The notes under the pieces are model-generated. The model saw nothing but the letters and a program-made list of their open reading frames with translations. It was not told the origin of the DNA and did not search any database. From an uncultured Butyrivibrio sp. (GTDB lineage Bacteria; Bacillota; Clostridia; Lachnospirales; Lachnospiraceae), in contig CAMORK010000014.1 in NCBI GenBank assembly GCA_946623755.1, positions 1-48,931 on the forward strand: a stretch of 48,931 nt of DNA. Reading direction: 5' to 3'. Below, one piece after another: positions 4,054 to 42,781 of this stretch (positions are counted from its first letter, which is position 1; the number at the start of each line of letters is the position of its first letter). A program made the position numbers and the translations under genes.

Positions 4054-4291
4054 TTCTACTTATACGGAAAAAAGTAGTCCATGGGCGTAGAACGCCAACG
4101 AGATGAAATTTGCATAAGGGGTTATTTTCTACCTATACAGACAAAAATGGCCTATGGGCGTAGAAAGTCGAAGAGATGATTCTACCTATACAGTAAAAAG
4201 TGGCTTATGGGCGTAGAAAAACTCAGATAAAATGAATTGTAATGATATTTCTTTCTACCTATACAAACAAAAGTGGCCAGTGGGCGTAGAA
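4054..4291. repeat. Four tandem-oriented copies of a 39-bp hairpin-forming repeat
   Basis: Four copies, each exactly 39 bases, lie at 4054-4092, 4127-4165, 4180-4218 and 4253-4291, all in the same orientation. Each begins TTCTACYTATAC, has an A-rich centre, and ends TGGGCGTAGAA. The ends pair (TTCTAC/GTAGAA). After a 2-base bulge the inner CTATA can pair with TATGG in copies 2 and 3, so each copy can fold as a bulged hairpin of about 11 pairs with a 15-base loop. The unrelated spacers are 34, 14 and 34 bases. Copies differ mainly in the loop. It looks like a family of small palindromic extragenic elements, not CRISPR: repeats diverge, spacers are irregular and there are no cas genes. Confidence 0.85.
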
Positions 4292-4322
4292 ACAATGGGA
4301 ATAATAAGATGCATATAAAGCC

Positions 4323-6280: not shown

Positions 6281-6319
6281 TGATTTTCCTCCGGATAAAG
6301 AAAAAGAATGTCCAACTAC

Positions 6320-6325
6320 ATTATA
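6320..6325 (-). promoter_or_regulatory. Candidate -10 element for the diguanylate cyclase gene
   Basis: A perfect TATAAT on the minus strand lies about 40 bases before the start codon at 6280 and just after the terminator hairpin. A -35 at 16-18 bases would fall inside the hairpin and is poor, so this is weak support only. Confidence 0.3.
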
Positions 6326-6335
6326 TTAAAAGAAT

Positions 6336-6368
6336 AGCCGCATGGATACCCTTAGTATTCATGCGGCT
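6336..6368 (-). terminator. Rho-independent terminator after the 103-residue gene
   Basis: AGCCGCATG (6336-6344) pairs with CATGCGGCT (6360-6368), and the stem continues inward with a mismatch (GATAC against GTATT). On the minus strand the hairpin is followed by ATTCTTTTAA. It separates the upstream phosphorelay/HD-GYP genes from the diguanylate cyclase gene. Confidence 0.75.
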
Positions 6369-6375
6369 TTGCATC

Positions 6376-6687
6376 TTAAGTATTGTCTGATTTGTCTTCC
6401 TTCATAGTCTCCTGGCCGCTGGCCCTCATTATCTTTATTCCCTCAAGAGCAACCTGATATATCATGGCCATCTCTCTGGAAGCCGGATCGTTATAACTGC
6501 ATTTGGATTTTAACGCCTTGAAATGCTGCTCTGCTTTTTCGATAACAGGCTTGGTTATCATGATTCCGTCACAATACAGCGTTCCTGTCTGCGGGTCATA
6601 TTTCGAATCTTCATACTTGGTCTTAGCAAAATCTCCTGCGCCCATAGATGCCGCCAGTTGATTTAAAAGATCCAGTTTATCTGCCAT
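6376..6687 (-). CDS. Small soluble protein of unknown function
   Basis: A 103-residue protein that I do not recognise. It has no signal peptide or membrane segment. The centre reads as a short beta pair (GTLYCDGIMITKPVI) followed by helices, and the tail is Lys/Glu/Asp-rich. The ATG at 6687 has GAGGTGG upstream. A TATACT element lies about 25 bases before the Shine-Dalgarno without a clear -35. It sits between the degenerate HD-GYP gene (92 bases upstream) and a terminator, so it is the last gene of that run. An adaptor or regulatory role in the c-di-GMP block would fit the position but nothing in the sequence proves it. Confidence 0.7.
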   Translation of the reverse strand: MADKLDLLNQLAASMGAGDFAKTKYEDSKYDPQTGTLYCDGIMITKPVIEKAEQHFKALKSKCSYNDPASREMAMIYQVALEGIKIMRASGQETMKEDKSDNT

Positions 6688-6779
6688 ATGCCGCCACCTC
6701 GCTTCAAATAGTATAAATCTACAAAATACTGAAAAAAGTAGATATATATATTATAATTCCTCTTGCATTCGGTGCGCAA

Positions 6780-9152: not shown

Positions 9153-9163
9153 CAAACATTCCT

Positions 9164-9925
9164 TTATCTGCTATGAAGTATAAAAAACTCATTGAGCTTC
9201 TCCAAAAGCTCTTCTTTTTTGATGTTTTTCAAAAAATAACCTTCCGGTTTCAATGAAACCACCTTCATCACACTTTCCTTATCACTTTTTCCTGTAAGAA
9301 ACATAACCGGAATAGACTTGGTCTCATCGTCGCTTCTAAGCATTTCCAGCACCTGCGGGCCACTGGTCACCGGCATCTCGTGATCAAGCAGGATCAGATC
9401 TACCGTATTTTTCCCAAGCCACTTAATTGCCTGCAGGCCGGAATTTGCCATAAATACCTTATAAGTATCTTTTAACCACTCTCGAACAAGCCCAAGATAA
9501 TTGGGATCATCATCGACTACAAGGATGCTCTTTTTAAAATCACCCTTACGTTCTTTCTCAAAGTATTCCGTAACTGCCTTTAGATATGCAGCATTATCTA
9601 CAGGACGCGGAAAAGTGCTGTAGATAAGATGTTCGGGAATATGTGTGGATATACTCTGCAGATCTTTTTGCTCTCCTATCAGGATGATCTGCTGGCTTCT
9701 CTCTTCCATCGTATCAGCCAGATAGTGAATGACATCCTCATGAGAAGACGATTGATCATCCATATACAACGTGATCAAAGTAACTCCATCGAGCTTTTTG
9801 TTGATATCATCAATAGAACAGGGGGCAAAACTGCAATCTATGCCTGAGTCCTGCGCTTTTCCTATCAGTACCCTGACTATAAATGATTCTTTTTCACCTA
9901 CAACGATCATGCGATCCTTAAACAT
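9164..9925 (-). CDS. Response regulator: pseudo-receiver plus C-terminal receiver
   Basis: About 253 residues with no DNA-binding output. The C-terminal ~120 residues are a standard receiver (LVVDDD, phosphoacceptor in LLDHEMP, T in FLTG, Lys in LKNIKK). The N-terminal ~125 residues alternate strands and helices like a receiver (MIVVGE, LITLYMDD, IILIGE, FPRPVD) but lack the acidic pocket and the KP lysine, so this half is a pseudo-receiver. I chose ATG 9925 over the longer frame to 9985 because AAGGAGAG lies five bases upstream; the longer version would run into the kinase gene. It is sandwiched between the hybrid kinase and an HD-GYP gene and is a likely phosphorelay output or shuttle. Confidence 0.85.
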   Translation of the reverse strand: MFKDRMIVVGEKESFIVRVLIGKAQDSGIDCSFAPCSIDDINKKLDGVTLITLYMDDQSSSHEDVIHYLADTMEERSQQIILIGEQKDLQSISTHIPEHLIYSTFPRPVDNAAYLKAVTEYFEKERKGDFKKSILVVDDDPNYLGLVREWLKDTYKVFMANSGLQAIKWLGKNTVDLILLDHEMPVTSGPQVLEMLRSDDETKSIPVMFLTGKSDKESVMKVVSLKPEGYFLKNIKKEELLEKLNEFFILHSR

Positions 9926-9950
9926 ACTCTCTCCTTTTTCTGAGGCATTG

Positions 9951-12900
9951 TCATGAAATGAGAGCCTCCATGCCTTCCCAATCAAATACTTTTAACTTTT
10001 TAGCAAGTTCTGCTATCTTTTCTTTATCATCCTTTGGAAGTTTGTATTCATTGAGCTGATTCAGGATCATCTCCACAGCATCATAGTCCATCTGAGGGAT
10101 CACATCCCTAAGAGCACTGTATGCATCATTAAGCTCTTCCAAAGAGATCTCCTCTTTATCAGAATCATCCTGCATCTCGCTCTCATCAAGCCCCGCAAGT
10201 TTATCCTTAAATTCCAGATAGCTCTTTAACAGATCATCATTATGTTTGTCGATAAACTCAATGTCTTCCTTATTGCCCGCATCCTCTATACTCTCTGCAA
10301 GCTTTGACATTTCCGTGGCACCTATGATCCTGTATGAGCTCTTGAGTGCATGAACCTTAATAGTATAAAGCCTGATATCCCCGGCTTCATAGGCGTCACT
10401 TATTACTCTTGCATTTCCGTCTATAGTCTCGAGGAACATCTTAAGGGAATAAATAAACTGTGAAATACCTCCGGAATTCTTGATTCCCTCATCCACATCA
10501 ATTCCTTCCACATCATAAATCCAATTAAGCTCCGGCGGAATACTCTCCAGATCAGCAGTGGCCTCTGTCGCCTCCGGCTTATCCATGATCTCCTCGGGAA
10601 GATGACGCATTATAGCATTCTCAAGGGCATAACTGTCAATAGGCTTTGACAAATATCCCGTAAAACCTTTGGACTTATAGAATTCCTCTCCGGCTGTTGA
10701 ATTGGCAGTAAGTGCATAGACCGGTATATCCGGATCAGTCTCACGAATGTGTGCTACTGTCTCAATACCATCCATCCCCGGCATCATGTGATCCAATAGC
10801 ACTACATTGAATCTTGTAGACTTCATTTTTTCCAGGCACTCCTGTCCGCTTGAAGCAGTAGTCACGAACATCTTTGTAGCTTTCAAAAGTCCCTTAATGA
10901 CACTGAGGTTCATCGGATTGTCATCAACTACCAGTATATCTGCATCAGGGGCTATGAATTTAGGTACATACGGCCCCTTTGCGGCAGACTCATCGTGTTC
11001 TATGAATAATCCCAATGGCGAAGTATCGGTTATTTTCTGCTTCAGGCACAGTATAAACTCCGAGCCTTCCCCATACACACTCTCACAGGTCAGCGTTCCA
11101 CCCATAAGCTCGGTAAATCGTCTGGATATGTCCAAACCAAGTCCTGTTCCCTGAATACCGCTGTTCTTTTGTTCGTCCAGCCTCTCGTATGCAGTAAAGA
11201 GCTTATCCATGTCTTCTGCCTTAACACCAATTCCTGTATCCTTTACAGAGTATCGTATGCTGGCTTCATCCCCATGGCGCTCATCCATTGAAACAGACAG
11301 GATGACGCAGCCCTTTTGTGTATACTTAACAGCGTTGGTAAGAAGGTTTAAAACCACCTGCTTTATCTTTCCTGCGTCTCCATACAGCTTCTTGGGAATA
11401 AGTTCGTCTACAACAACATCGAACATCAGCTCTTTTTCTGTACATTTCACACGTATCATCGATACTATTGACCTTAAAAGATCCTGAACATCATATTCCT
11501 GCTCGACAAGATGCATCTTGCCCGATTCAATTTTTGATATATCAAGAAGATCATTGATAAGGCCAAGAAGAGTCTCAGACGCATTTCTGATATCAAGGGC
11601 ATAGTTAACCATAGACATAAAATATGCCTTGGGTACATCCTTGGGATTTTCACGCAGTATCATCTCATCCATACCCATTATGGTATTGATAGGTGTGCGT
11701 ATTTCATGGGAAATATTGGCAAGGAATCTGGTCTTTGCCAAATTGGCCCGCTCTGCATCGTCTCTTGCCTGCTTGATCTCTTCATACTGTCTTCTGATGA
11801 CAGTTCCCTTCATTACCCTCCACACAATAAGTCCTGTGAAAAGAGCTATGAGTATCAGCGACAAAACCCGCACGATCCAAAGTTCTGAAAACCGGGATTT
11901 CTTGGTGATACCTACAGTCTGCTCCAACATAACATTTCTCCTGGTGTGATCGAGAACCTGTATGTGAAGAGTATAGTTTCCGCTGCTCATACCGGTATAC
12001 TCAAGGTCCTGAAGCTGGCTTCTTGGTACTACCAATTCATCTTCTTCGTCACCCTCCATAAAGATCCTTACCGGCGGATCAGTCAACGTATAATCAAGAA
12101 CCGAAACCTCTATCCTGACTCTTCCACCGCTTGAAGGCAAAGTATATCTGCCCTGGCCGTCCGGTAATATCTTTTTATCACCGATGTATATCGACTTTAC
12201 CGTGGTTTTGACCGCTATTTGTCCCTCAAAAAAGTTTTTGATATTTACCTTGCATACCCCTGCCCTTCCGGAAAGGTATAAATCACCATTTTCATCCAGA
12301 TAGCTGAAGGAATTGGAAGTAGGGGTTCCTGTGAGGCCATTGGCGAGTGTATACAGCTTGAAATCTGTTATACTGTCATCAACCATCTCACGGGCATCTA
12401 CGACATAAATACCTGCAGAAGAAATAACCCATATATCATCGCTTTCGCTGACAATAAGGTCATAGTTGTTGTTATATGGAAAAGATGTAACCTGTGTTAC
12501 GATTTCATCCTTCATGTACTGAATTGAGTTTGATGTCACCAGCCAGTAAAGATCCCTCATGTCATCCCTGATGATCTTCATGACAACATCGCTGGTGAGC
12601 CCATCATCTCTGCCGATCTTTCTTACGCCGGCATCGCTGATCACATATATTCCGTCACCATCTGTTCCTACATATATCTGGCCGTCATCGCCCTCTTCAA
12701 TATCCAAAAACACAGTATTCTTTATAGTCGGATCCAGCGCCAGTACGCTCTGTACCTTTCCATCTGAAATCCTGGCAAGGCCAATATTTGTCCCCGCGTA
12801 AATACTGCCATCTCCGGCCTGCATAGTGCATCTTATCTCATCGCTCGGCATTCCGTTTTGTACACTAAAATTCGTTATGTTACCTTCTTTTGAGTAACAC

Positions 12901-14204
12901 ACCAGTCCGATGCCGTTATCGAAAGTGGATATCCATAAATTGCCATCATCATCCCGCATAAGACAACGGATTCTTGAATGCCCCAAATAATCTGTCAGTT
13001 CATTCTCAATCACCTGATTGTCTTTTCCCAGAATCCTCAATCCCTGGTTAGAGCCAACGTAGAGCTTATCTCCAACAAGACAGGTTGCATTTACTACCTC
13101 TCTCGGCAATCCCGTTATGCGACTCATATCCGTAAAATTGCTGGTTACGAGCTTCATAACTCCCTGCGTAGAAGATGCGATCCAAATATTTCCCTGATAA
13201 TCAGAGGTAGCCATTTCTATTCCACTGTCCACAGGAAGGTCGTTGATCAGATTAAAGCTGTTATCAACATCCAGATATCCCAGCTGACTGCTGGAAGATA
13301 CCCATATCCTTCCGCAGTCATAATTTATCCAGTGTATGGAATTTAAAGGTGCCACGGATATATGTCTTAATTGTCCGACAGGATCTCCAAAGCGTCCATA
13401 GTAAAGATCACTTCCCTCCGTACCGAAATAGACATATCCATCTCTGGCCGGGTCACTCAGGATATTTGATATTCTGTTTTCCAGGCCAAGTTCACGGCTG
13501 CTGTAACAGAGGTTGATCACCTGATCCTCAACGGAGAATACAATGCCATTCTTGGTCTGCCCATAAATAGTGCCCTGTGAATCGCTGTACAGGCTCAGCA
13601 CTCTCTCCTCATTAATCCTGTCATCTTCAATGTTATGGATCACCAAACCGGCATCCGCAAAACATATTCCGGCTGTAGTCCCTATATATACATTACCTTC
13701 ACCATCTTCTGCAAAAGATCTGATTGATGAAGATGGTAGTCCTTCCTTATAAGTGATCCATGTAGCCTTTTCACCGTCCAGCACAACAACACCGTTATCA
13801 TTGGTGCCAACCCAGATCCGGCCACGGCTGTCTTCAAACATTCCTCTCCCACTGGTAAGACCATCGGAAGTAGTTATTTTTTCAAACACAGACCCGTCGT
13901 AACGAATTATTCCACTATAGCTGCCGATCCAAATATACCCGTCACTGGCGCCAAGGACACAATTGGCATCTGACGTAGGCAATCCATTAGTAGCATCATA
14001 AACCTGCGTGGCATATCCTGCGGACCCAAGCTGTCCTGATACAGCATAACCTCCACCAAGCCTTAGCGTGTTTTCATCAGCCTCCATTACAAGTGATGAG
14101 CTGTCAGATGCTGCGGAGTCAAAGCAATCGCAATAAACTCCGGCAATCAATATCAGCACACCAAGAGAAGCCGCTATGAAGTTTTGGATCTCTCTCTTCT
14201 CCAT
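9951..14204 (-). CDS. Hybrid sensor histidine kinase with extracytoplasmic beta-propeller, receiver and HPt
   Basis: This 1417-residue membrane kinase has an N-terminal membrane/signal segment (~10-28), then about 640 residues of two-component propeller repeats (recurring GLPSSSIRS, DGYIWIG and GRIWVGT patterns). A Y_Y_Y-like beta domain and a transmembrane helix (~778-800) follow. The cytoplasmic part has HisKA (SHEIRTP, His ~833), an ATPase domain (N-box LLTNAVKY, DTGIGV, GTGLGL), a receiver (LLDHMMPG, Asp ~1138) and an HPt domain (VHALKSS, His ~1285). The last ~65 residues form a further conserved block (PQMDYDAVEM). This is the full His-Asp-His phosphorelay of BvgS/HTCS-like kinases, but without an HTH. 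Propellers of this type sense carbohydrate or other periplasm-side ligands in Bacteroidetes; the ligand here is unknown. AAGGAG precedes ATG 14204. Confidence 0.95.
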   Translation of the reverse strand: MEKREIQNFIAASLGVLILIAGVYCDCFDSAASDSSSLVMEADENTLRLGGGYAVSGQLGSAGYATQVYDATNGLPTSDANCVLGASDGYIWIGSYSGIIRYDGSVFEKITTSDGLTSGRGMFEDSRGRIWVGTNDNGVVVLDGEKATWITYKEGLPSSSIRSFAEDGEGNVYIGTTAGICFADAGLVIHNIEDDRINEERVLSLYSDSQGTIYGQTKNGIVFSVEDQVINLCYSSRELGLENRISNILSDPARDGYVYFGTEGSDLYYGRFGDPVGQLRHISVAPLNSIHWINYDCGRIWVSSSSQLGYLDVDNSFNLINDLPVDSGIEMATSDYQGNIWIASSTQGVMKLVTSNFTDMSRITGLPREVVNATCLVGDKLYVGSNQGLRILGKDNQVIENELTDYLGHSRIRCLMRDDDGNLWISTFDNGIGLVCYSKEGNITNFSVQNGMPSDEIRCTMQAGDGSIYAGTNIGLARISDGKVQSVLALDPTIKNTVFLDIEEGDDGQIYVGTDGDGIYVISDAGVRKIGRDDGLTSDVVMKIIRDDMRDLYWLVTSNSIQYMKDEIVTQVTSFPYNNNYDLIVSESDDIWVISSAGIYVVDAREMVDDSITDFKLYTLANGLTGTPTSNSFSYLDENGDLYLSGRAGVCKVNIKNFFEGQIAVKTTVKSIYIGDKKILPDGQGRYTLPSSGGRVRIEVSVLDYTLTDPPVRIFMEGDEEDELVVPRSQLQDLEYTGMSSGNYTLHIQVLDHTRRNVMLEQTVGITKKSRFSELWIVRVLSLILIALFTGLIVWRVMKGTVIRRQYEEIKQARDDAERANLAKTRFLANISHEIRTPINTIMGMDEMILRENPKDVPKAYFMSMVNYALDIRNASETLLGLINDLLDISKIESGKMHLVEQEYDVQDLLRSIVSMIRVKCTEKELMFDVVVDELIPKKLYGDAGKIKQVVLNLLTNAVKYTQKGCVILSVSMDERHGDEASIRYSVKDTGIGVKAEDMDKLFTAYERLDEQKNSGIQGTGLGLDISRRFTELMGGTLTCESVYGEGSEFILCLKQKITDTSPLGLFIEHDESAAKGPYVPKFIAPDADILVVDDNPMNLSVIKGLLKATKMFVTTASSGQECLEKMKSTRFNVVLLDHMMPGMDGIETVAHIRETDPDIPVYALTANSTAGEEFYKSKGFTGYLSKPIDSYALENAIMRHLPEEIMDKPEATEATADLESIPPELNWIYDVEGIDVDEGIKNSGGISQFIYSLKMFLETIDGNARVISDAYEAGDIRLYTIKVHALKSSYRIIGATEMSKLAESIEDAGNKEDIEFIDKHNDDLLKSYLEFKDKLAGLDESEMQDDSDKEEISLEELNDAYSALRDVIPQMDYDAVEMILNQLNEYKLPKDDKEKIAELAKKLKVFDWEGMEALIS

Positions 14205-14214
14205 GCCACTCCTT

Positions 14215-16350
14215 TTACATCGTTCTGTTATACTTTTTCAAAACAACCTTAACCTCAGGAATGTTATCAAGAAATACCTCTACGCACTTGGGATCAAACT
14301 GCGTCCCCTTGCCTTCTTTGATAATGTCAAGAGCTTTGTCCAAAGGAAAGGCCGGCTTATATACTCTTGGAGATGTAAGAGCATCAAACACATCGGCTAC
14401 AGCCATTATTCTGGCAGAAAGAGGGATGATTTCTCCATGCAATCCATCGGGGTACCCTTTTCCATCCCATCTCTCATGATGATACGCAGCCATATTCCTT
14501 GCTTCTTTGAGGTAATTCTCACCCATGACAGTACTTATGGCATCTTCCATGATCTTCTTTCCAACAGTAGTATGCGTCTTAATGATCTCAAACTCTTCAT
14601 CTGTCAGTTTGCCAGGCTTATTGAGTACCGCATCCGGGATGTTGATCTTTCCAATATCATGAAGCGGCGCTGAGCGGACTACGTCGGAAATAAACTTAGC
14701 ATCGATCTTTTCAGCGTAATATCCCTTTTTCTGCAGGCCTTCAACAATTATCTTTACATAAGCGGCAGTCTTTTGAATATGAGCACCTGTATCAGAGTCT
14801 CTGTTTTCAACCATATCAGCCATGGTAACAATAAGTCCGTCCTGCATCTTGGCTGTAGTATCAGAAAGCCTCCTTAAGTCGCGCATCTGCTCTGAAAGAT
14901 TAAGTGTCATATTGCAAATAGAGTTATAGAGTTCCTCCACTTCATCCTGTGTTTCGATTTTCAGAGCCCTGATACTCTTAACATTTTTATCAAGTTGTTC
15001 CTGTCCATAACCAAGGTTGGAAAAATCATTAACGCACTTGGCCATACTTCTGATCGGATATACCATGGTAACATTCGTTACCCAAAGGTTATGCGCGATT
15101 ACCAGGATAAAAAAGCCCAGAAGAATAAAGAAAGCTTTTGTCATAAAGCTTTTCATGTAGCCCTGCATATTCGTTATCGAGATATCTGCCACTCCATAAC
15201 ATACGACACGTCCGCCGGAGTCTTTTATCGGGTAAAAGATCGACCGTGTCCAGTGCCTCATACTGCCATGCTCTAACGGCTGTACATTTTCTCCGGCCAA
15301 AAACTGCGGTAAATACTCCAAAAAATCCTCGTCATAATCAATCTTCACCGGAATGGCTTCACCCTTATCGCTGTTGAGATCGAAGATACGACGGCCGGCG
15401 TTTTTCTCGAATTTCACAAAAAACATATTTTCAACAGAGCCAGAGGCTCTTTTTATCTTTCGCAGAAGCTCCTGCGTTTCAAGATACCCTTCTGCATCTT
15501 CTCCTGCCGCGATGAAACCATTTATTTTCTCGGGGTCAATGACATCGGCAGAGAGTCTGAGCGCATTTAAAGCATCTATTGTCTTCTCCTGCTTAGTGTT
15601 GTTAAAATACAGACCAAATCCTATCCATCCTGTCACAACTATCAGGATCAATGATGTGGATATAACAATGGCTGTGGTTCTGCGGCCCATACTATGTCTG
15701 GTATCTTTTCCCCACACCTTGAGTTTCAGAATTTCATCCCTTGAAAGAGGTTCCTGTTTCCAGTTCCCTCTTTCCAGCCTGTGTAATTTGTTGTCCGGAA
15801 TAAGAATCAAAAGCAGCCATGCAACGGCCGCAGAAAGACCTTTGTCCAGTATATTCCTCAGAAGCGTATATATATAGTAGGCCAAAAACAGATTGCCTCC
15901 AATTATCGAAGCAAAAAGCTCTGTCGTTTCCGAATTCTTGGCAACCTGAGCACCATCCAGAAGGTTCCAGTTGATAACAGCGCTTATACTTCCGGACACA
16001 AAGGCCACTATTAAAATGTACATAATAAAACTTGAGATTTTCTTTTGCGAGAATTTTCTGATATACCATACAGTAAATATAGCTATCAGAGCATTAAGAA
16101 AGCCAAAATACACAGCATTTTGGTCAAAGATGCCACATATGGCATTGGTCATAACAGCCGTTAAGATGCCGGGGAAAAGTCCGCCTACAGCAGCTACTGC
16201 TATTGTACCAATAGCATCGAGAAACAAAGGCATACCCATTTTGTCCATCAAAAAAGCAAGCATAACATTGATCATTATTCCGATCAATGAAAGCAAGATT
16301 CTGGTTTGAGCTCCGCCTTTTGTTGAGCTAGGGTATCTGTAATCAGCCAT
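14215..16350 (-). CDS. Membrane HD-GYP cyclic-di-GMP phosphodiesterase with extracytoplasmic sensor
   Basis: About 711 residues. Residues ~15-187 are five or six membrane helices resembling an ECF-type substrate-binding membrane domain (GTIAVAAVGGLFPGILTAVMT). Then come a transmembrane helix (~226-248), a ~150-residue extracytoplasmic sensor domain, another helix (~403-423) and a HAMP-like/coiled linker. The HD-GYP domain (~505-700) has all expected metal residues: GAHIQKT, LHDIGK, KTHTTVG, YHHERWDGKGYP and VADVFDAL. It is therefore predicted to hydrolyse c-di-GMP in response to an external signal. I start at ATG 16350, with AAGGGTGG just upstream, rather than at the in-frame TTG at 16365. 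It ends 10 bases before the hybrid kinase gene. Confidence 0.93.
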   Translation of the reverse strand: MADYRYPSSTKGGAQTRILLSLIGIMINVMLAFLMDKMGMPLFLDAIGTIAVAAVGGLFPGILTAVMTNAICGIFDQNAVYFGFLNALIAIFTVWYIRKFSQKKISSFIMYILIVAFVSGSISAVINWNLLDGAQVAKNSETTELFASIIGGNLFLAYYIYTLLRNILDKGLSAAVAWLLLILIPDNKLHRLERGNWKQEPLSRDEILKLKVWGKDTRHSMGRRTTAIVISTSLILIVVTGWIGFGLYFNNTKQEKTIDALNALRLSADVIDPEKINGFIAAGEDAEGYLETQELLRKIKRASGSVENMFFVKFEKNAGRRIFDLNSDKGEAIPVKIDYDEDFLEYLPQFLAGENVQPLEHGSMRHWTRSIFYPIKDSGGRVVCYGVADISITNMQGYMKSFMTKAFFILLGFFILVIAHNLWVTNVTMVYPIRSMAKCVNDFSNLGYGQEQLDKNVKSIRALKIETQDEVEELYNSICNMTLNLSEQMRDLRRLSDTTAKMQDGLIVTMADMVENRDSDTGAHIQKTAAYVKIIVEGLQKKGYYAEKIDAKFISDVVRSAPLHDIGKINIPDAVLNKPGKLTDEEFEIIKTHTTVGKKIMEDAISTVMGENYLKEARNMAAYHHERWDGKGYPDGLHGEIIPLSARIMAVADVFDALTSPRVYKPAFPLDKALDIIKEGKGTQFDPKCVEVFLDNIPEVKVVLKKYNRTM

Positions 16351-16394
16351 GATCCACCCTTCCAAAAATTATGCGATATTGCGCATGCCTATTA

Positions 16395-33411: not shown

Positions 33412-34230
33412 TTATTTCATTGCGTCCTCTTCAAGGTCGTAGCTTATCTCATCAAGTTCTGCATGGTAGAACTCCGACCAGCTGTACTGGTTCATGTAAT
33501 CGCCCATGTACTTGTATTTGGAATCATTCCCATTGTCCAGCCAGTCATAGAGGTCACACTCTATCCTGTCTTTGGCAATAGCCATGCTCCCTCGCTGTTT
33601 TAGAAGGATTCCATCCAGCTTCAGTTTATTAAACGTATTCTGGAGATCCTGTCTTAAATTACACAGATATGAAAGCTTCTTTTCCGGATCGCCATCATCT
33701 TCCCACAAGGAAGCAATGATCTCACCGTTTGTAGTCTGGGCTCCTCTGTTGTTGATAAGAAGAGCAACGATTTCTTTGGTCCTCTTATACTTAAATTCCA
33801 CTGGCTGCCCATCGACAAAAAGCTCAAAGTTTCCAAAGGTCTGAGCAAATACTCTCTTAATCTTTTTACGCATCTCAGGATATCTGAGTGAATCAAGCTC
33901 ATTCTGAACTTCCTTGTCATTTCCGGGCTTTTTCAAATATCCGCTGGCATGAAGTTTCATGGCTTCATACGCATAATCGGTATCCTCAGTAAGATATATA
34001 AGGTTTACGTATGGATTCAGCTCTTTTAAATACCTTCCCAGATCAATACCCGAAAGTTCGGGCATTTCCACATCAAGAAAAGCCACATCTATTTCTTCTT
34101 CACGGGCTTTAGCCAAAGCTGAAAGAGATTCTTCGAAGAAATAACATGTAGCATCAGGTAATGTCTTTTGCAAAATACCTTTTATTTTTTTTAAGGAGGC
34201 GCTGTCGTCGTCTACTGCCAGTATTGTCAC
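33412..34230 (-). CDS. Response regulator with SARP-type DNA-binding domain
   Basis: A 272-residue predicted transcription regulator. Residues 1-125 are a receiver with acidic AVDDD, phosphoacceptor Asp in FLDVEMPE (about 53), YLTED and YLKKPG. Residues ~135-225 are a winged-helix of the OmpR/SARP type (FGNFELFVDGQPVEFKYKRTKEIVALL), and the remainder is a short helical part of the bacterial transcriptional activator region. Start GTG 34230 overlaps the upstream stop (GTGA) with AGGAGG just before it. It has no cognate kinase next door; it belongs to the partner-switching run and could translate that switch into transcription. Confidence 0.9.
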   Translation of the reverse strand: MTILAVDDDSASLKKIKGILQKTLPDATCYFFEESLSALAKAREEEIDVAFLDVEMPELSGIDLGRYLKELNPYVNLIYLTEDTDYAYEAMKLHASGYLKKPGNDKEVQNELDSLRYPEMRKKIKRVFAQTFGNFELFVDGQPVEFKYKRTKEIVALLINNRGAQTTNGEIIASLWEDDGDPEKKLSYLCNLRQDLQNTFNKLKLDGILLKQRGSMAIAKDRIECDLYDWLDNGNDSKYKYMGDYMNQYSWSEFYHAELDEISYDLEEDAMK

Positions 34231-34745
34231 TGTTCACCTCCTGCTGTAGGTAAAGTAATGGATTTAACCTTCTGATTTTGTCTCTGCTCTGCTGTCATGT
34301 GCAGTGGATCAGCTTCTCCTACCACCAGAGTATCTCCATCATTCAGGGCAGCATCATGAAGCGGGCCACAATTCATGTCGGCCAGCACCAGAGCTGCAAA
34401 TCTGTCATAATTATCATCATCTATAACAGGAAAATGGTACTTCATGCGATACCAGTGCTCCGGGTCATACCCCGTCCCTCCGATATATAGCCTGTCAGCG
34501 GTATCTGCGACCTCATCCACCCCCGCTTTATCGCCGGGCTCAAGTCCTGCTTCTTCACAAAAAAGAACACCATAAGCCTTCAGGATTCTGTCCCTTACGG
34601 TCTCATCGCTTCCGCTCTTATTCTTCCTTCCGGTCGGAGTATCCATGACTTGATAAAAGAAGTCCTGAGCCTCTTCACTATCATCGAAGTGCACGATTGC
34701 ATCAAAAAACTGCTTAGGATCGATGTCTTTTGCAATTGATGCCAT
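34227..34745 (-). CDS. Soluble acidic protein of unknown function in the partner-switching operon
   Basis: A 172-residue protein that I do not recognise. It has no membrane segment or signal. The composition is acidic, with helical stretches and a central aromatic/acidic region (GYDPEHWYRMKYHFPVIDDDNYDRFAALVLADMN is its core, 34-base-pair-free of known motifs). It has GGGGGG upstream of ATG 34745, follows the GHKL kinase gene by 14 bases, and overlaps the response regulator by four bases. Strict coupling to both neighbours suggests that it is a dedicated partner of the switch, for instance an adaptor or effector. Confidence 0.75.
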   Translation of the reverse strand: MASIAKDIDPKQFFDAIVHFDDSEEAQDFFYQVMDTPTGRKNKSGSDETVRDRILKAYGVLFCEEAGLEPGDKAGVDEVADTADRLYIGGTGYDPEHWYRMKYHFPVIDDDNYDRFAALVLADMNCGPLHDAALNDGDTLVVGEADPLHMTAEQRQNQKVKSITLPTAGGEQ

Positions 34746-34759
34746 TTATATCCCCCCTT

Positions 34760-35170
34760 CTATGCCCACGAATACCCCATGCTGAAGATGTTCTTGCCAT
34801 CTTTACGTTCATAGCTTGTCTTATCCATGCTTTTTTTCACGATAAAAATACCCAGGCCGCCGATTTCTCTTTCCTCCGCGGACAAGGTTACATCCGGATC
34901 CTCTTTAGCCAAAGGATTATAAGGAATACCCTCATCAATAAAAGTAATTGTTACATAGCTGTTGGCAGGGTCAGTATCCACCTCAATCCTGCAGCTTCCG
35001 CTCTTATCCTCATAGGCATAGCTGGCTACATTGACGAAGATTTCCTCTACGGCAACATCAATCTGCATCTGTCCTTTCATGGAACATTCAGCTTTTTCGA
35101 GTTCTTCATCAATAACGGAAAGAAGCTGAGGCAGATTTTCAACTTTTGCATCCAATACTATTTCTCTCAT
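34760..35170 (-). CDS. GHKL anti-sigma-type serine kinase (RsbW/SpoIIAB-like)
   Basis: A 136-residue single-domain Bergerat-fold ATPase. The N-box is VAVEEIFVNVASYAY (Glu and Asn present), the D-box FIDEGIPYNP, and the glycine-rich lid IGGLGIFIVKK. Proteins of this family bind and phosphorylate a STAS antagonist and sequester a sigma factor or other target. The matching STAS gene is immediately upstream, and no sigma factor is encoded nearby. The ATG is at 35170. Its Shine-Dalgarno (AGGAT) lies in the loop of a small hairpin, which may limit translation. Confidence 0.92.
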   Translation of the reverse strand: MREIVLDAKVENLPQLLSVIDEELEKAECSMKGQMQIDVAVEEIFVNVASYAYEDKSGSCRIEVDTDPANSYVTITFIDEGIPYNPLAKEDPDVTLSAEEREIGGLGIFIVKKSMDKTSYERKDGKNIFSMGYSWA

Positions 35171-35190: not shown

Positions 35191-35220
35191 AGGCAAAAGG
35201 CATAGTAATGCCTTTTGCCT
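35191..35220 (-). terminator. Intercistronic hairpin between STAS and kinase genes
   Basis: A perfect 13-bp stem (AGGCAAAAGGCAT with its complement) and a 4-base loop lie 17 bases after the STAS stop. On the minus strand the following bases are ATTTCTTATAGG, a poor U-tract. It is therefore more likely a partial terminator or an mRNA-stabilising hairpin, giving more STAS than kinase message. Confidence 0.7.
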
Positions 35221-35237
35221 GTACTATATGCAACAAT

Positions 35238-35534
35238 TCATTCGATTGTGAGAATGTCTACGAAACCTGTTACTTCAAAGATCTCGTTAATCTCCTCGCT
35301 AACGTTCCTGATCACCATACTTCCCTGCTTATTCATGACCTTCTGAGCTGAAAGCAGCACTCTGAGTCCTGCGGAAGAAATGTACTCAAGTTTTGTGAAA
35401 TCAAACTCCAGCTTCTCAACCCCATCGAGGCTACCCTTAAGCTCATCATCAAGCTGAGGCGCGGTTGTAGTGTCGAGTCTTCCTGCTAATGAAATAGTAA
35501 GATCTTTCCCATTTGCTACTTTGTTAATTGTCAT
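35238..35534 (-). CDS. STAS-domain anti-sigma factor antagonist (SpoIIAA/RsbV-like)
   Basis: About 98 residues, a single STAS domain. It has GRLDTTTAPQLDDEL in the first half and the phosphorylatable Ser in YISSAGLRVLL, the usual site for the partner kinase. In the dephosphorylated state such proteins bind the kinase and release its target. I chose ATG 35534 because GAGGAG lies ten bases upstream; the longer GTG start would overlap the preceding gene region without a better site. The tandem pseudo-GHKL gene lies 27 bases upstream and the kinase gene 67 bases downstream. Confidence 0.92.
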   Translation of the reverse strand: MTINKVANGKDLTISLAGRLDTTTAPQLDDELKGSLDGVEKLEFDFTKLEYISSAGLRVLLSAQKVMNKQGSMVIRNVSEEINEIFEVTGFVDILTIE

Positions 35535-35561
35535 TGTGCTATTTCTCCTCTCTCTTTGCAC

Positions 35562-36773
35562 TCAAGAATTGAGTCCGTATACCATTGTAATATCTATTCT
35601 ATCACCTTTTACCCCAACAAGAACATCCTTGGCCAGGCTGGCAACGATAGACTTTTCAAGTTCATCCCATGCCTCTTGCGCACTGGGATCTGTTCCCTGT
35701 TCATTTCCAAGAGATTCTCTGTAATCACTCAGGGACCACATGATTCCGGGATCTGAACTTCCTTCCATTATACCGTAAATTCCCATAGAACCAAAGCTTA
35801 CATATCCGGTTCCATACTGCTGCTGCAGCTTCATAACCTCAGAATAATTGAGAAGTCCGTTTTCAACAACATCACTGACTTTACTCATAAAGCCCTTAAC
35901 GGCGCTATTGCCTTTATCTGTTGATACTGTCAAAAGATCTTTCTTCTTGGCTGCATCCATCAAAGTCTTTGCAGTAAGCTTAAGACAGCATACATTCTTG
36001 TATTTCTCAAGCCATATCTCTGCACGGAAGTCAGCAGTCATAGCCTTGAGCATTCCGATAGTCTCTTCAAACAGCAGCTTCAAATGAATTGCATCCTTGG
36101 CAGAGACATCCAGCTCCTCAATCAGTTCATCAGCTCTGGCATAAATTTTGCCTTCATCGATCTTGGAACTGTCAACAAACGTGAAGTCACTCTTTGCAAC
36201 AGGAACTCTTGAACCGATAGCTCCGAGAGCTTCAGAGAAGTCCTTGGTAACTACCATTTTAATATCATCTTTACCTACACCAACTTCAATATCATCAGCC
36301 AGATTAGCAACCAGCGATCTCTCCAGGTCATCCCACGCTTCCTGGGAATACTTGTCCTCTTCCTTTCGGCGTCTTAATTCCTCCTGATATTCCTTAAGGG
36401 ACCACTTGCTTGTGCCCGGAGCATCCATTACGAACAGCGATCTCAGCTTTCCGAAGAATCCCTGCTCTACGCTGTTTTCTCCGGTTGTTGATACAGAGAT
36501 CAGTTCATCCTCTCTGGTCTTGTCCATATGATTCTCGGCTGTCAGATATATCTTGGTAACCCTTGAATTACCTTCAAGCCAAAAATTCATAATTCCATAT
36601 CCGATTATTGATTTTGCCAGACGAAGAACTTCTTCTGAGAGAAGTCTTAGCCTTAAGGCATCTTTGCCTTTGATCGCCGTATCAAAGATGTAGTTCTCAA
36701 CTACTTCCTGAGCCACGTCCATCTTGGATTCGAGATTGGCAATCTTAATGTGCTCTGATTGAACGAAACGCAT
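35562..36773 (-). CDS. Tandem degenerate GHKL-like protein (two ~190-residue repeats)
   Basis: A 403-residue cytoplasmic protein made of two related halves. In each half a helix LRLLSEEVLRLAKSI (LKLLFEETIGMLKAM in the second) stands where the kinase N-box should be. Next come a strand KIYLTAE/CLKLTAK, then TVSTDKGNSAVKGF-like and KWSLKEYQEEL-like segments, and a closing helix/strand pair LERSLVANLADDIEV/LEKSIVASLAKDVLV. This order parallels the GHKL kinase encoded downstream, but the N-box Asn, the DxG and the glycine lid are gone, so ATP use is unlikely. I infer a duplicated pseudokinase, perhaps a docking partner for the STAS protein. Strong GAGGAGGGGG precedes ATG 36773; it is the first gene of the operon. 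Confidence 0.75.
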   Translation of the reverse strand: MRFVQSEHIKIANLESKMDVAQEVVENYIFDTAIKGKDALRLRLLSEEVLRLAKSIIGYGIMNFWLEGNSRVTKIYLTAENHMDKTREDELISVSTTGENSVEQGFFGKLRSLFVMDAPGTSKWSLKEYQEELRRRKEEDKYSQEAWDDLERSLVANLADDIEVGVGKDDIKMVVTKDFSEALGAIGSRVPVAKSDFTFVDSSKIDEGKIYARADELIEELDVSAKDAIHLKLLFEETIGMLKAMTADFRAEIWLEKYKNVCCLKLTAKTLMDAAKKKDLLTVSTDKGNSAVKGFMSKVSDVVENGLLNYSEVMKLQQQYGTGYVSFGSMGIYGIMEGSSDPGIMWSLSDYRESLGNEQGTDPSAQEAWDELEKSIVASLAKDVLVGVKGDRIDITMVYGLNS

Positions 36774-36847: not shown

Positions 36848-39562
36848 TCATCCTCTTCTGGCTCTTCTCTTATATTTAACAAGATTTACGAAGCATATTA
36901 CTGCCAGGATAAATGAAAGGAATGCAATTATAACCACTCTGAGTACAAGCTTGTTCACATTTACCGCTTCATAAGCGATGGCATATTCTGAGAATCTGTC
37001 GGTCCTGAATGTAACTGTATTGGGATCATTTCCTATGTCCTCAAGAACATCAACCACACCGTTATGATTTCTTATAACAAAGAACTTCCTGCCATCCTTC
37101 CTGTATTTCTCAGGGATAGGCACAACTACTTCCAGTTCCGCAGAAGTATTGTTGATAACAGATGTTGTCCCATTGCTGGTCTTCATAATAAGGAAGTCAA
37201 AGTAGCTTACAGGCCTATATCCGATCTTTTTCTGCATCTGCTCCTTTATTCCGGCATCGACAGTCTCTGTGTTTTCTGTGATGTCAATATTGAAAGAAAC
37301 AGGTGTCCCGGTCAGAACCTGATATTTTTCTTCCGATGTGAGGGTTTCAGCTATAACATCTTCAAAGTTAATGAGCGTGGGCTGAGAGTAGTAAAGCTGT
37401 ACTGCCGTCTCCTGCTGGTCTTCGGCATAAGTATTGTTTACCGTTATCTGAAGAGTACCATCCTCAAACGCCTCTCTGAGCATTGGAAGAACAGCATCAT
37501 CTTCAATAAGTATTCTTAGCGTAGTCTCATCAATATTGTGTTTTGCCATCACGCTGCCGGCCATAACTGCAGTTGGTTCCTCTGTAGTCTCCGGTTCTAC
37601 CGCCTCAGTATAGACATCCTCTGCATACTGCTCTTCATCCAGAACTTCAACCTTCTCCGGAACTGCCTCGTCAACTACCTTCTGCTCAGCTACAGCTCCC
37701 TCTGCAGCGGTCTTCTCGTTATATTCAGTCTTTTCCTTTTCTGCAGCCTGAGCTTTCTGATTGTCGGAATTCTTTTTGGTGGTTGTCCCTGCAGTATTTG
37801 ATTTCTTCGGCGCCTCCGGAATCTTCTCAAAACTTGCGGTAATACTGTGTCCGCCTTTTATATTGTTGAAGGTGTAGCTGGAAACAGCTCCAATATTTTT
37901 ACCATCCACTGTTACAGCTGTGATCCTGTAGCCACTCTGAGCCATAATGCTGTAGGTTACACTGCTTCCCTCGGGAATATCAAAATCACCGCTTGGAGAT
38001 ATTATTCCACCGGTATTGGTAATACCTGCTGTGACTCTGTATGTTGGAGTGTTTTTCTTCATAAAGTTGGCAACAACATTAACGTCGCTTTTAATATGTT
38101 CAATTGTATAATTATTGTCTCTTGAAACCGTCTGGCTGTTAATGGTCCATCCTGTAAATTCATATCCGTCATACGCCTGGGCACGAAGCACTACTTTATC
38201 GCCCTTATTGTATGTGCCGGCTCCTTCATATTTACCGGTATCCTGAGGATAAACAGATACATTCACCGTACATCTGTCTCTGTTAAAAACAGCTGTTATG
38301 TTTCTATCTGTTGTAATATTGTTAAGCTCTATGGAAGGAGCATCGCTTATGGTCTTGTTATCCTCAACAAAACCTGCAAAGCTGTATCCGTCATTTGCTT
38401 TTGCGGTAATAGTCATCTTTCCGCCATACGGTACACTCTGACTGCCTGTTACAGATCCACCGTCACCGTTATTTACGCTTGTTCTTACATAACAGGATTG
38501 TCTTTCAAATTTTGCTACAAAGGTATGATCCTCAGTTACATTATTGATCGGAGTCTGCCCTGAGTTTGAGATTAGTGTGTCTCCTTCGTACCAGCCGGTA
38601 AATACGTAATTGTTATTAGGCGATGCTGAAATAGTGCAGCTTCCGCCATCTCTTACCACTCCGCCTCCGGCAATCGCTCCGCCTTCAGCCGGCTCGGCTT
38701 TTACGCTGATGACATGATCAACAGCCACCACTGTGATCACGCCTCTGTTTGCTATTGAAGGATCCTGTATCGAAGTTGCCACCACTGCAAATGTCGTTGC
38801 TGTCTCGTTAGGACTTACCGTGACTGTTCCGTTCCCGTCAACCGTTGTGCCTGTACTCTGATTTCCTGCAAGTGACCATGTAACAGTCGGATCATAATCA
38901 TTTACGCCATTTACATTAGCATCAAAATCAAAGCTTTTCCCAATCGGTATTGTTGCTGATGAAGGTATAACATTAACAGATGTGATATACGGTGCGTTAT
39001 CTACAACGGTAACCGATATGTCTACAGTTGCAGTATGATGCCTTCTGTAATCGTTTTCCGAAAAGAATGTATATCTTGCCTGATATGTACCGGGTTCAAG
39101 GTCTTCATACGGAGCCACCGAAAACAGTATCGACTCCTGAGGTCCAATATAATTGTCCTCAGCCAAGTATCCCACATCAAATGCTGTATAGGGATCAATC
39201 TCTTCCCAGGTAAGAGGGAAAGTGGTGGTTCCTATATTCACAATTGAAAACTGCTTGGCATAGACTACATCACCGGCATTTACTTTTCCGAAATTGATCG
39301 TTGGAGTATAGCAGGCCAGATTATAATCAAAAGGGTCCGACTCGGGATCAGGCTCGGGCTGCGGATCAGGCTCGGGCTGCAGATCAGGTCCGGGGTTCGG
39401 CTCGGGATCAGGCTCAGGATTAGAAATGTCCAATACATTATTGGTATCCGGATATTCCTCCGCATAGGCGTGGATAATCTGAATTGCTGTTGCACTTGTA
39501 AGCACAAAGCAGATCGCAAGGAGCACCGCGCAAATCCTTAGGACAACCTCTCTCTTTTTCAT
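36848..39562 (-). CDS. Large membrane-anchored surface protein with Ig-like and repeat domains
   Basis: About 904 residues. There is an N-terminal signal peptide, then a Pro/Glu/Asp stalk (repeated PEPDP) and a beta-sandwich resembling ASPM/SPD-2/HYDIN domains (TINFGKVNAGD). An Ig-like domain (SSATIPIGKSFDFDANV) follows, then four tandem ~75-residue repeats of the bacterial InlB-B/Flg_new type (GYSFAGF, GYEFTGW, NYVFTGW, GYRITAV patterns, each ending in AxF). A Lys/Glu/Ala-rich linker leads to a further domain, one transmembrane helix and a basic tail (KYKRRARRG). No LPXTG is present, so anchoring is by the helix. I start at ATG 39562 (MKKREVVL), preceded by GAGGTGA. Adhesion or cell-surface interaction is the likely role. 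Confidence 0.88.
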   Translation of the reverse strand: MKKREVVLRICAVLLAICFVLTSATAIQIIHAYAEEYPDTNNVLDISNPEPDPEPNPGPDLQPEPDPQPEPDPESDPFDYNLACYTPTINFGKVNAGDVVYAKQFSIVNIGTTTFPLTWEEIDPYTAFDVGYLAEDNYIGPQESILFSVAPYEDLEPGTYQARYTFFSENDYRRHHTATVDISVTVVDNAPYITSVNVIPSSATIPIGKSFDFDANVNGVNDYDPTVTWSLAGNQSTGTTVDGNGTVTVSPNETATTFAVVATSIQDPSIANRGVITVVAVDHVISVKAEPAEGGAIAGGGVVRDGGSCTISASPNNNYVFTGWYEGDTLISNSGQTPINNVTEDHTFVAKFERQSCYVRTSVNNGDGGSVTGSQSVPYGGKMTITAKANDGYSFAGFVEDNKTISDAPSIELNNITTDRNITAVFNRDRCTVNVSVYPQDTGKYEGAGTYNKGDKVVLRAQAYDGYEFTGWTINSQTVSRDNNYTIEHIKSDVNVVANFMKKNTPTYRVTAGITNTGGIISPSGDFDIPEGSSVTYSIMAQSGYRITAVTVDGKNIGAVSSYTFNNIKGGHSITASFEKIPEAPKKSNTAGTTTKKNSDNQKAQAAEKEKTEYNEKTAAEGAVAEQKVVDEAVPEKVEVLDEEQYAEDVYTEAVEPETTEEPTAVMAGSVMAKHNIDETTLRILIEDDAVLPMLREAFEDGTLQITVNNTYAEDQQETAVQLYYSQPTLINFEDVIAETLTSEEKYQVLTGTPVSFNIDITENTETVDAGIKEQMQKKIGYRPVSYFDFLIMKTSNGTTSVINNTSAELEVVVPIPEKYRKDGRKFFVIRNHNGVVDVLEDIGNDPNTVTFRTDRFSEYAIAYEAVNVNKLVLRVVIIAFLSFILAVICFVNLVKYKRRARRG

Positions 39563-39621
39563 AATTCTCACCTCTTCTTTCAGCATATATCTTTACAGTT
39601 CACTTTATTCTACTAAAACTT

Positions 39622-40983: not shown

Positions 40984-41023
40984 AATGGACGCCCCTAAAC
41001 ATCATCATTCAAGGTCGTCCATT
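40984..41023 (-). terminator. Candidate terminator overlapping the end of the ANTAR gene
   Basis: AATGGACG (40984-40991) pairs with CGTCCATT (41016-41023), with partial pairing further inward. On the minus strand the hairpin includes the last codons and stop of the ANTAR gene and is followed by TCTTAATTT. The U-tract is interrupted, so efficiency is uncertain, but the position at the end of the nitrogen operon is right. Confidence 0.5.
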
Positions 41024-41592
41024 ATTCTTTCTGCTGCTCTGCGCCTGGATATTCCTTCGTTCATGGCGCAGCTTCCTATGAACCTGTGCGCTTCATCCTC
41101 AGTCATGGCTTTCTTTTCGATTAAAAGAACCTTTGCACGGCTTATTATCTTAACTTCCTCCAGCTTTTCTTTTGCCAGGGAAATTTCTTTTGAAAGCTTC
41201 TGTATCTTATTCTGTACAAATATAAGGTATCTGATCGACTTATTTAAAAGCCCTCTCTGAAACGGCTTCTGAATAGCTAAAACCCCTAAATCTGTGACTC
41301 TGTCAAGCACATCCCCATATATATCCGGGGTGGTTACGATCAGTACGCTGATGTTGGAATCCTCTGCAATGTCCAACGCCAGATCAATTCCTGAGTCATC
41401 CGGAAGAGGCGCATTGATCACAACAATATCATAGTACCTTTCCAAGATGCTTCTCCTGGCCGAACTCGCGCTTCTAAGGAAGTCAATCGTCATAAAATCT
41501 CCTTCAGGAAGCGACCTCTTAACCACCGGGTCGAATTGCTCCGATCCGGATACTACCAGCAGGGAGTGCTGAAAGTCATCCTTTCTTGGCAT
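41005..41592 (-). CDS. ANTAR-domain RNA-binding regulator with non-phosphorylatable receiver
   Basis: A 195-residue predicted antiterminator. Residues 1-125 follow a receiver fold, but the acidic pocket (VVSGSE where VVDDD is usual) and the phosphoacceptor (Asn-60 in VVINAPLP) are lost; the KP lysine remains. A coiled linker leads to the C-terminal ANTAR domain (SRAKVLLIEKKAMTEDEAHRFI then SRRRAAERIM), which in this family binds paired hairpins in leader RNAs. GGAGG precedes ATG 41592, 13 bases after glnA. ANTAR proteins next to glutamine synthetase usually control nitrogen genes. Control without phosphorylation, such as by a partner protein, is inferred. Confidence 0.9.
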   Translation of the reverse strand: MPRKDDFQHSLLVVSGSEQFDPVVKRSLPEGDFMTIDFLRSASSARRSILERYYDIVVINAPLPDDSGIDLALDIAEDSNISVLIVTTPDIYGDVLDRVTDLGVLAIQKPFQRGLLNKSIRYLIFVQNKIQKLSKEISLAKEKLEEVKIISRAKVLLIEKKAMTEDEAHRFIGSCAMNEGISRRRAAERIMDDLE

Positions 41593-41605
41593 GGCAATCC
41601 TCCAA

Positions 41606-42781
41606 TCAATGACCCATATATGCTCCTATGAGATCCTCAGGTACAAACTCTTTTACAAAGCTGCTCTCAAGAGCCAACGCCTCTGCTTCTTTCTTGGACT
41701 TCGGTAAAAGAATGGCATCCAGATTTGTCTTCTCAGAAAGCACCATACGATTGTTGATCCCGTACAGTCCCGCCCTGATGAGCAGTGCATAGACAAGATA
41801 AGGGTTACTGAGAGCATCAGGGGAACGAAGCTCAACGTGTGTCCTGCCCTTGTATGTCTCAACAAACATAAGCTCGGATTCTCCCGCATCCGACCAGTTA
41901 ACTTTATCCGGTGCCAGGTTATTGCCAAGTCTGGCATAGGATTCAGTACTGGGATTCATGAAAAGAGTGATTTCCCTTATCTTTTCCATGATTCCTGCCG
42001 CCGCGAAGCCTGCCACATCATTGCCGTCCTTGTCATCCGCATAGATATTGATGTGATAGCCGTTTCCGGGTTTGCCGGGAAGAGGAACAGGAGAAAAATC
42101 CGAGACCAGACCGTATCTGTCAGCTATGGTACTTACAACCATCTTGAAGGTGGTCATCTGATCAGCAGCCTTTAAAGGTTTTCCGTAGTGAAAATCAATC
42201 TCGTTCTGTCCGGGGCCATGCTCGTGATGACTTCTCTCGGGAGTCAGCCCCATTTTTTCTATTGTAAGACAGATCTCACGTCTTACATTCTCGCACCTGT
42301 CAGCCGGTGCGATATCCATATAACCTGCAGTATCATAAGGGATCTTGGTAGGATTTCCGGATTCATCCTTGTTAAAGAGATAAAACTCCGTCTCAGAGCC
42401 GAACCTGAATTCAATCCCTTCTTTTTTGGCCTCTTCCACTGCCTTTTTTAGTACATTCCTTGTGGATGAAAGTATTTCCTGCCCGTCTGCACTGTAAACA
42501 TCACAGAACATGCGTAGTACTCTTCCGCTGTCCGGCCTCCACGGAAGAACAGCCAGCGTTGAAGGATCCGGCCTTAAATACAGCTTGGCGTACTGGCTGC
42601 CCCTGAATCCGGCAATCTCCTTTGCACTTATGGGAGCTCCGTCCTCAAAGGCCTTTTTCAGCTCCCCCGGCATGACCGAAATGTTTTTTTGCACACCAAA
42701 AGCATCACAAAATGCAAGCCTGATAAACTTGGCATCTTCCTCTTCAACGTATTTAAGAACTTCTTCAACTGTGTACTGCAT
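41606..42781 (-). CDS. glnA: Glutamine synthetase family protein, short form
   Basis: A 391-residue protein with glutamine synthetase order: beta-grasp N-domain (IRLAFCDAFGVQKNISV), GSETEFYLF (metal Glu), HHEHGPGQNEIDFHY, GNGYHINIY (the usual GxGxHxH region, altered), NLAPDKVNWSD and HVELRSPDALSNPYL (Arg/Glu). It should make glutamine from glutamate, ammonia and ATP. The length is about 50 residues under the usual type I (~440), mostly from the C-terminus. It lacks an obvious adenylylation-loop Tyr. AAGGAGG precedes ATG 42781. The placement after gltBD and dapL supports ammonia assimilation, though a related gamma-glutamyl ligase cannot be excluded. Confidence 0.85.
   Translation of the reverse strand: MQYTVEEVLKYVEEEDAKFIRLAFCDAFGVQKNISVMPGELKKAFEDGAPISAKEIAGFRGSQYAKLYLRPDPSTLAVLPWRPDSGRVLRMFCDVYSADGQEILSSTRNVLKKAVEEAKKEGIEFRFGSETEFYLFNKDESGNPTKIPYDTAGYMDIAPADRCENVRREICLTIEKMGLTPERSHHEHGPGQNEIDFHYGKPLKAADQMTTFKMVVSTIADRYGLVSDFSPVPLPGKPGNGYHINIYADDKDGNDVAGFAAAGIMEKIREITLFMNPSTESYARLGNNLAPDKVNWSDAGESELMFVETYKGRTHVELRSPDALSNPYLVYALLIRAGLYGINNRMVLSEKTNLDAILLPKSKKEAEALALESSFVKEFVPEDLIGAYMGH

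Follow-up and report, generated by a model that had tools for sequence, protein, structure and literature searches.

What does a protein with the outline of an anti-sigma kinase, but stripped of the motifs for adenosine triphosphate (ATP), do next to an intact kinase and a STAS protein? The question is raised by a locus in the window, meaning the whole 48,931-nucleotide stretch analysed here (contig CAMORK010000014.1 of assembly GCA_946623755.1, an uncultured Butyrivibrio sp.). A preliminary description, made from the letters alone, had placed a 403-residue protein at 35562–36773; this open reading frame (ORF) is borne out and lies on the minus strand, which had been left unstated. With moderate confidence, the protein is regarded as an anti-factor that has lost kinase activity, within a partner switch whose duties are split and whose output depends on the lineage. 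In reading direction, the gene for the 403-residue protein is followed by those for the STAS protein, the kinase, X172 and the response regulator RR272, as listed below (bp, base pairs).

35562..36773, minus strand: predicted tandem pseudo-GHKL protein of 403 residues (ORF call; full-length homologues)
36216..36773, minus strand: first predicted pseudo-GHKL half, residues 1–186 (Glu-Glu at 47–48; Leu52 replaces the N-box Asn)
35562..36200, minus strand: second predicted pseudo-GHKL half, residues 192–403 (Glu-Glu at 236–237; Met241 replaces the N-box Asn)
35238..35534, minus strand: STAS protein of anti-anti-sigma type, 98 residues from the likely ATG (TIGR00377, 1.3e-19; Pfam STAS, 1.6e-15)
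35191..35220, minus strand: terminator-like hairpin with a 13-bp stem, after the STAS gene (hairpin scan and folding of relatives)
34760..35170, minus strand: intact HATPase_c_2 kinase of RsbW/SpoIIAB type, 136 residues (Pfam HATPase_c_2, 6.7e-22)
34227..34745, minus strand: X172, a 172-residue protein with nothing above any curated cut-off, recurring with RR272
33412..34230, minus strand: RR272, a response regulator with a receiver and a weak winged-helix domain, possible output (Response_reg, 9.8e-19; Trans_reg_C, 0.041)

The internal repeat is evident from profile comparison by hhalign, in which residues 1–186 and 195–403 align over 172 columns with 31% identity (probability 99.9, E = 2.3e-31) and the profile of each half also matches single-domain relatives. 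In the AlphaFold2 models both halves show a Glu-Glu helix, two strands, a last helix and two last strands, which confirms the two repeats of GHKL layout proposed initially. The models display the GHKL/Bergerat arrangement of two N-terminal helices, a mixed sheet, a last helix and two strands, and a SiaB-like fold is predicted for the family as well. A structural search with the halves had been set beforehand as a test of the GHKL assignment, which it left standing: the closest structural matches of both predicted halves are anti-sigma kinases, the best being UsfX. Curated models yielded no NCBIfam match for the 403-residue protein and one sub-threshold Pfam match (E = 0.033) to an immunoglobulin (Ig)-like family; HATPase_c and HATPase_c_2 gave no match at E ≤ 1, and neither appeared for 64 family members among the matches listed (25/35 families). 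A search of 5.8 billion proteins returned 211 relatives in its length range; the best 120 of these 211 contain no Pfam domain, are called 'hypothetical' or uncharacterised in their sources and, where an organism is shown, come from Butyrivibrio or Lachnospiraceae.

On the sequence side, a wider profile, A2, reached real kinases in the right register at E = 4e-4, and at 6e-5 after degenerate ABC-fused domains had been added; against PDB sequences, SiaB included, it found nothing at E ≤ 10. Four weak A2 matches occurred among the genomes of the genus, three of them (loci L100, L101 and L103) in an ABC ATPase whose tail is GHKL-like but degenerate and the fourth (L102) in a place with no ORF over the match in the ORF list without open ends. 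The predicted fold supports the assignment of the 403-residue protein as a tandem degenerate GHKL protein of the anti-sigma class, and the sequence supports it more weakly. The ABC transporter ATPase, at 1499–2590 of L100 on the minus strand and also found in L101 and L103, is an observation in its own right: its degenerate GHKL-like C-terminal domain helps to bridge the family profile to GHKL, and a Pfam scan of the L100 protein returned ABC and other P-loop matches only, with no HATPase.

The family is common in the genus and sparser outside it. With the 403-residue protein as query, 48/99 genomes were matched (all genome counts include the genome of the window), and a 64-member profile found the family in 46/61 genomes of the genus, in 34/295 genomes and 14/129 genera of an order sample (one genus by a weak match only) and in 4/398 genomes of a phylum sample, two of them in the same genus and two in one other genus. 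Pooling of the window with loci L002–L031, L040–L099 and L107–L135, from which genes with identical last 150 residues were dropped, gave 92 family genes: 59 single-domain, 28 tandem and 5 fused. In a tree of 120 domains, all 28 first halves fall together with a single one-domain protein (support 100/100) and all 28 second halves with 15 such proteins (100/99), and the five fused proteins are split off from the rest by one branch (100/100). Support is weak at several deep forks, and long branches drew a warning from the tool. Since the two halves are not close sisters in this tree, the tandem form is probably old.

The N-box Glu and Asn have a role in SpoIIAB catalysis. In the register of the profile–profile match, it is the latter of the two adjacent Glu residues that corresponds to the N-box Glu, and it is conserved in 64/64 members. 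The Asn position, four residues after it, is hydrophobic in 120/120 domains (Met in 75, Leu in 42, Ile in 3); if the position is counted from the first Glu instead, Asn is found in 8/120. Counted as patterns over whole domains, not position by position, DxG occurs in 3/120 domains and GxG in 16/120. The same patterns applied to 18 distinct kinase ORFs of 120–160 residues from the same loci, duplicates removed, gave DxG in 18, GxG in 18 and ExxxN in 16. The N-box Asn, DxG and glycine lid, reported as gone at the outset, are indeed absent by pattern, and this loss argues against kinase activity of the tandem protein on the Ser/Thr of a STAS protein. Other residues are kept: the 64-member alignment of second halves has Glu46 in 64/64, Asn98 in 63/64, Asp179 in 61/64 and Ser184 in 64/64, and these conserved positions may form a protein interface.

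What the family keeps company with is, above all, STAS. A STAS ORF on the same strand lies within 150 bp of 56/92 family genes (33/59 single, 23/28 tandem, 0/5 fused), upstream in 28 cases and downstream in 28. By chance, about 0.24% of genes would adjoin a STAS gene, an estimate that takes the 226 STAS matches counted across the 61 genus genomes and assumes 0.9 genes per kilobase (kb). The linkage is strongly non-random; a binomial p for it is not to be taken literally, because of the relatedness among the family genes. A phospho-acceptor-type Ser is conserved in 57/57 STAS proteins within 160 bp, including the one in the window, where it stands in the motif YISSAGL and where we take it to be the equivalent of SpoIIAA Ser58. 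The window STAS protein probably starts at the ATG at 35534, with a GAGGAG box ahead, rather than at the GTG at 35561, and its counterpart in the close relative L081 has 98 residues, in agreement with that start. Elsewhere in the same assembly, which is 60% complete, a second family gene (single-domain, 182 residues) immediately follows a STAS gene on a different contig. No further family gene was found in the assembly, and each of the two has one of the two small-frame STAS genes next to it; a third STAS match falls in a 558-residue frame.

The kinase is a looser companion. A kinase profile match, with fused and partial matches included, lies within 3.5 kb of 24/92 family genes, a lower bound because the flank of many loci extends only 1.5 kb, and of 15 of the 56 genes having an adjacent STAS. 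The survey of homologue neighbourhoods proposed in the preliminary description thus left the claimed association unrefuted for STAS and showed it to be weaker for the kinase. The 136-residue kinase has intact motifs (EIFVN, DEG and GLGI) and is the sole HATPase_c_2 match above cut-off in its assembly, which also holds five SpoIIE matches, one of them partial. All the ingredients of a partner switch, namely a STAS protein with a phosphorylatable Ser, a kinase and a SpoIIE-type phosphatase, are therefore present in the genome. In other loci they lie together: L041 and L044 have the order STAS, kinase, SpoIIE phosphatase, family gene, and L056 has STAS, a membrane SpoIIE-HATPase fusion, family gene.

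The same neighbourhood had been described as one partner-switching operon. A STAS gene and then a real kinase gene do come next downstream, but a single three-gene operon was not accepted as shown, on account of the hairpin between STAS and kinase and of relatives that have the family gene and STAS with no nearby kinase match. The scan turned up a single such site in the region, where shuffled sequence predicted 2.9; since the scan alone is below shuffle expectation and thus no evidence, the case for the hairpin rests on conservation. A clear hairpin follows STAS in 9/11 relatives folded, nearly the same one in L080 and L081 and other strong ones in L082, L083, L085, L086, L088, L090 and L091; the fold of L089 is ambiguous and L093 has none. 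In L093 the STAS and kinase genes are 14 bases apart without a hairpin, so that their co-transcription is likely. Judged from such layouts, the family gene and STAS look like a transcription unit, and the kinase–X172–RR272 block like a neighbour coming after it in the clade of the window.

Candidate outputs differ among lineages. That no sigma factor lies nearby is true for the window contig, where there is no Sigma70_r2 match (the three in the 60% complete assembly are all on other contigs), but it does not extend to four relatives, L020, L021, L090 and L092, in which Pfam scans place a gene for a sigma factor of extracytoplasmic function (ECF) type 47–83 bp upstream of the tandem gene. Relatives of X172 and RR272 recur together, as a two-gene module, close to the family gene in the window clade, L095, L096, L098 and L120. 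Lastly, Pfam scans of five proteins of 458–484 residues show MscS channel domains with the family domain at the C-terminus:

L066, 4134–5510: MscS–pseudo-GHKL fusion
L072, 4130–5554: MscS–pseudo-GHKL fusion
L073, 4734–6140: MscS–pseudo-GHKL fusion
L075, 4066–5472: MscS–pseudo-GHKL fusion
L076, 3808–5262: MscS–pseudo-GHKL fusion

No STAS was found in the fetched stretches of these five loci. As a side observation, L054 carries at 4277–4603 (minus strand) a zf-HC2 gene, located 168 bp downstream from a family gene of the single-domain kind; zf-HC2 is a putative zinc-finger of a type met in anti-sigma factors.

From these directly computed features we infer STAS binding, output sequestration and a direction for the switch. 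The 403-residue chain would consist of two kinase-dead domains of RsbW/UsfX type and would be the binding, or 'anti-factor', half of a partner switch, the two classical duties of an RsbW-type protein being divided between a binding protein and a kinase. The dead tandem protein would hold an output protein, with the neighbouring STAS protein as its switch. Phosphorylation of STAS on the conserved Ser by an intact kinase (in the window, the 136-residue neighbour) would break the STAS contact, and SpoIIE-type phosphatases encoded elsewhere in the genome would reset STAS. The output would vary by lineage, with an ECF sigma factor in some relatives; in the window, the likeliest candidates are the X172/RR272 regulator module and a target not linked to the locus. 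A bolder version is held only tentatively: Butyrivibrio-like bacteria may plug the domain, as a general kinase-dead STAS reader, into various outputs, be it an ECF sigma factor, a response-regulator module or the cytoplasmic end of an MscS channel, such that STAS phosphorylation would control transcription and perhaps channel gating and the tandem form would read two STAS proteins at once.

Precedents exist for parts of this scheme. RsbW1 of Mycobacterium smegmatis is an anti-sigma factor that did not phosphorylate RsfB, RsbW2 is the kinase and a third homologue opposes RsbW1 (PMC7693655). The mycobacterial SigF switch with RsbW1/UsfX and RsbW2 resembles the proposed system in its division of duties and in having a STAS protein that Ser phosphorylation switches (PMC7693655). 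The 403-residue protein differs from RsbW1/UsfX in being tandem, without a Pfam match and with no sigma factor on its contig, and the solved UsfX chain has 129 residues whereas single-domain family members have about 175–230, with a conserved insert. RsbW3 of M. smegmatis is alike in being an RsbW homologue without kinase activity on RsfB and an extra member of a partner switch (PMC7693655), but it acts on RsbW1, whereas here the linkage is to STAS and a dimer with the kinase is putative. SiaB of the Pseudomonas aeruginosa SiaABCD system is an active kinase on Thr68 of SiaC (PMC7647112), unlike the window family, which lacks ATP motifs. With SpoIIAB/RsbW of Bacillus the tandem protein shares the predicted fold of each half, the adjoining STAS and the N-box Glu; it differs in the missing N-box Asn, DxG and glycine lid, the tandem form and a large insert before the last helix. 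Partner switching by RsbW-fold proteins and RsbW homologues without kinase activity are thus already known, and for the duplicated dead kinase as a third member, called non-standard initially, M. smegmatis offers a precedent in RsbW homologues without kinase activity in a partner switch (PMC7693655). Within the reach of the searches, what is new is the existence of a distinct family with a long insert and no Pfam model, together with the tandem arrangement and the MscS-type channel fusions of that family; neither the family nor STAS control of MscS was found described in titles and abstracts of the open-licence PubMed Central literature.

Several results weigh against the split switch. Foldseek E values for GHKL entries are 6e-3 or worse; the top Foldseek row of the first model, that of the 403-residue protein, is the prenyltransferase PirF (E = 1.8e-4, TM score 0.17–0.21), and the best prenyltransferase for the second model, PagF, is at row 7 (probability 0.11). 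The hhalign probability of family against GHKL kinases is 34–65% with the wider profile, which is weak on sequence alone, and 0.4–0.5% with narrow profiles, with which the link failed. No STAS lies within 150 bp of 36/92 family genes, all five channel fusions among them. In favour of the switch, STAS matches per genome are more numerous with the family than without it (means of 4.4, n = 46, and 1.6, n = 15, p = 1e-6; in genomes at least 90% complete, 4.1, n = 25, and 1.6, n = 10, p = 8e-5), but these counts pool STAS domains of transporters with stand-alone ones, and the genomes that carry the family are larger. Regarding outputs, the four loci with a close ECF gene are one close clade of four genomes and the other sigma cases are looser (559 bp downstream in L061, about 4.2 kb away in L093 and L099), and the RR272 module is confined to few clades. 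The PirF likeness itself was judged spurious, PirF not being among the 50 entries listed by VIA-align and PagF being weak for the second model.

The explanation that survives best beside the split switch is a sink, in which a tandem protein without an output of its own titrates two unphosphorylated STAS proteins from another RsbW-type target. It would suit a STAS linkage commoner than that to the kinase or to any single output, a chain whose two domains could bind two STAS proteins and a hairpin that closes the two-gene unit; the ECF gene heading the unit in four relatives and the five MscS fusions point instead to an output on the domain itself. Such a decoy is possible but rather unlikely. 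The changing neighbours suit an anti-factor role no less well, and the split switch with a lineage-specific output is favoured over a pure decoy because the ingredients are those of M. smegmatis: a dead RsbW-type protein, an intact kinase, a STAS protein with its Ser, and SpoIIE.

More doubtful is an RsbW3-like heterodimer, in which the dead domains would join the intact kinase in a dimer, blocking or tuning its action. In M. smegmatis, RsbW3 interacts with RsbW1, and the authors of that work assume a heterodimer as RsbW-type anti-sigma factors are homodimers (PMC7693655); a kinase is near the family gene in the window, L111, L115, L117 and L135. The low frequency of kinases within 3.5 kb (24/92, many flanks being 1.5 kb) against 56 genes with STAS within 150 bp, and their presence at only 15 of those 56, speak against it, and the tandem protein might itself satisfy the dimer interface. 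Quite improbable is a domain that is not dead but a divergent nucleotide-binding or enzymatic one with a new site built from the invariant Glu, Asn and Ser: the near-invariant Glu46, Ser184, Asn98 and Asp179 would fit, but the classical ATP motifs are absent, a protein interface would equally explain the conserved residues and the insert has low model confidence. Hardly credible is an unrelated fold whose GHKL likeness is a mere common alpha/beta arrangement, for which speak the Foldseek values for GHKL entries and the weak profile scores.

Other features of the window deserve mention. A 912-residue protein with Flg_new_2 domains (divergent InlB B-repeat) is encoded at 36848–39586, and its relatives adjoin the tandem gene in several related loci. 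A receiver-ANTAR regulator directly adjoins a glutamine-synthetase-like gene, the latter judged by eye, at 41005–42781, and a signalling cluster at 4925–16365 comprises a receiver-GGDEF protein, two proteins with HD domains and a hybrid histidine kinase that carries propeller repeats.

If the split partner switch is correct, these bacteria would possess an unnamed family of pseudo-anti-sigma kinases, which would show how catalysis and binding in a kinase/anti-sigma pair can be assigned to separate proteins. The MscS fusions would then extend partner switching beyond transcription to membrane transport, in a manner that is directly testable.
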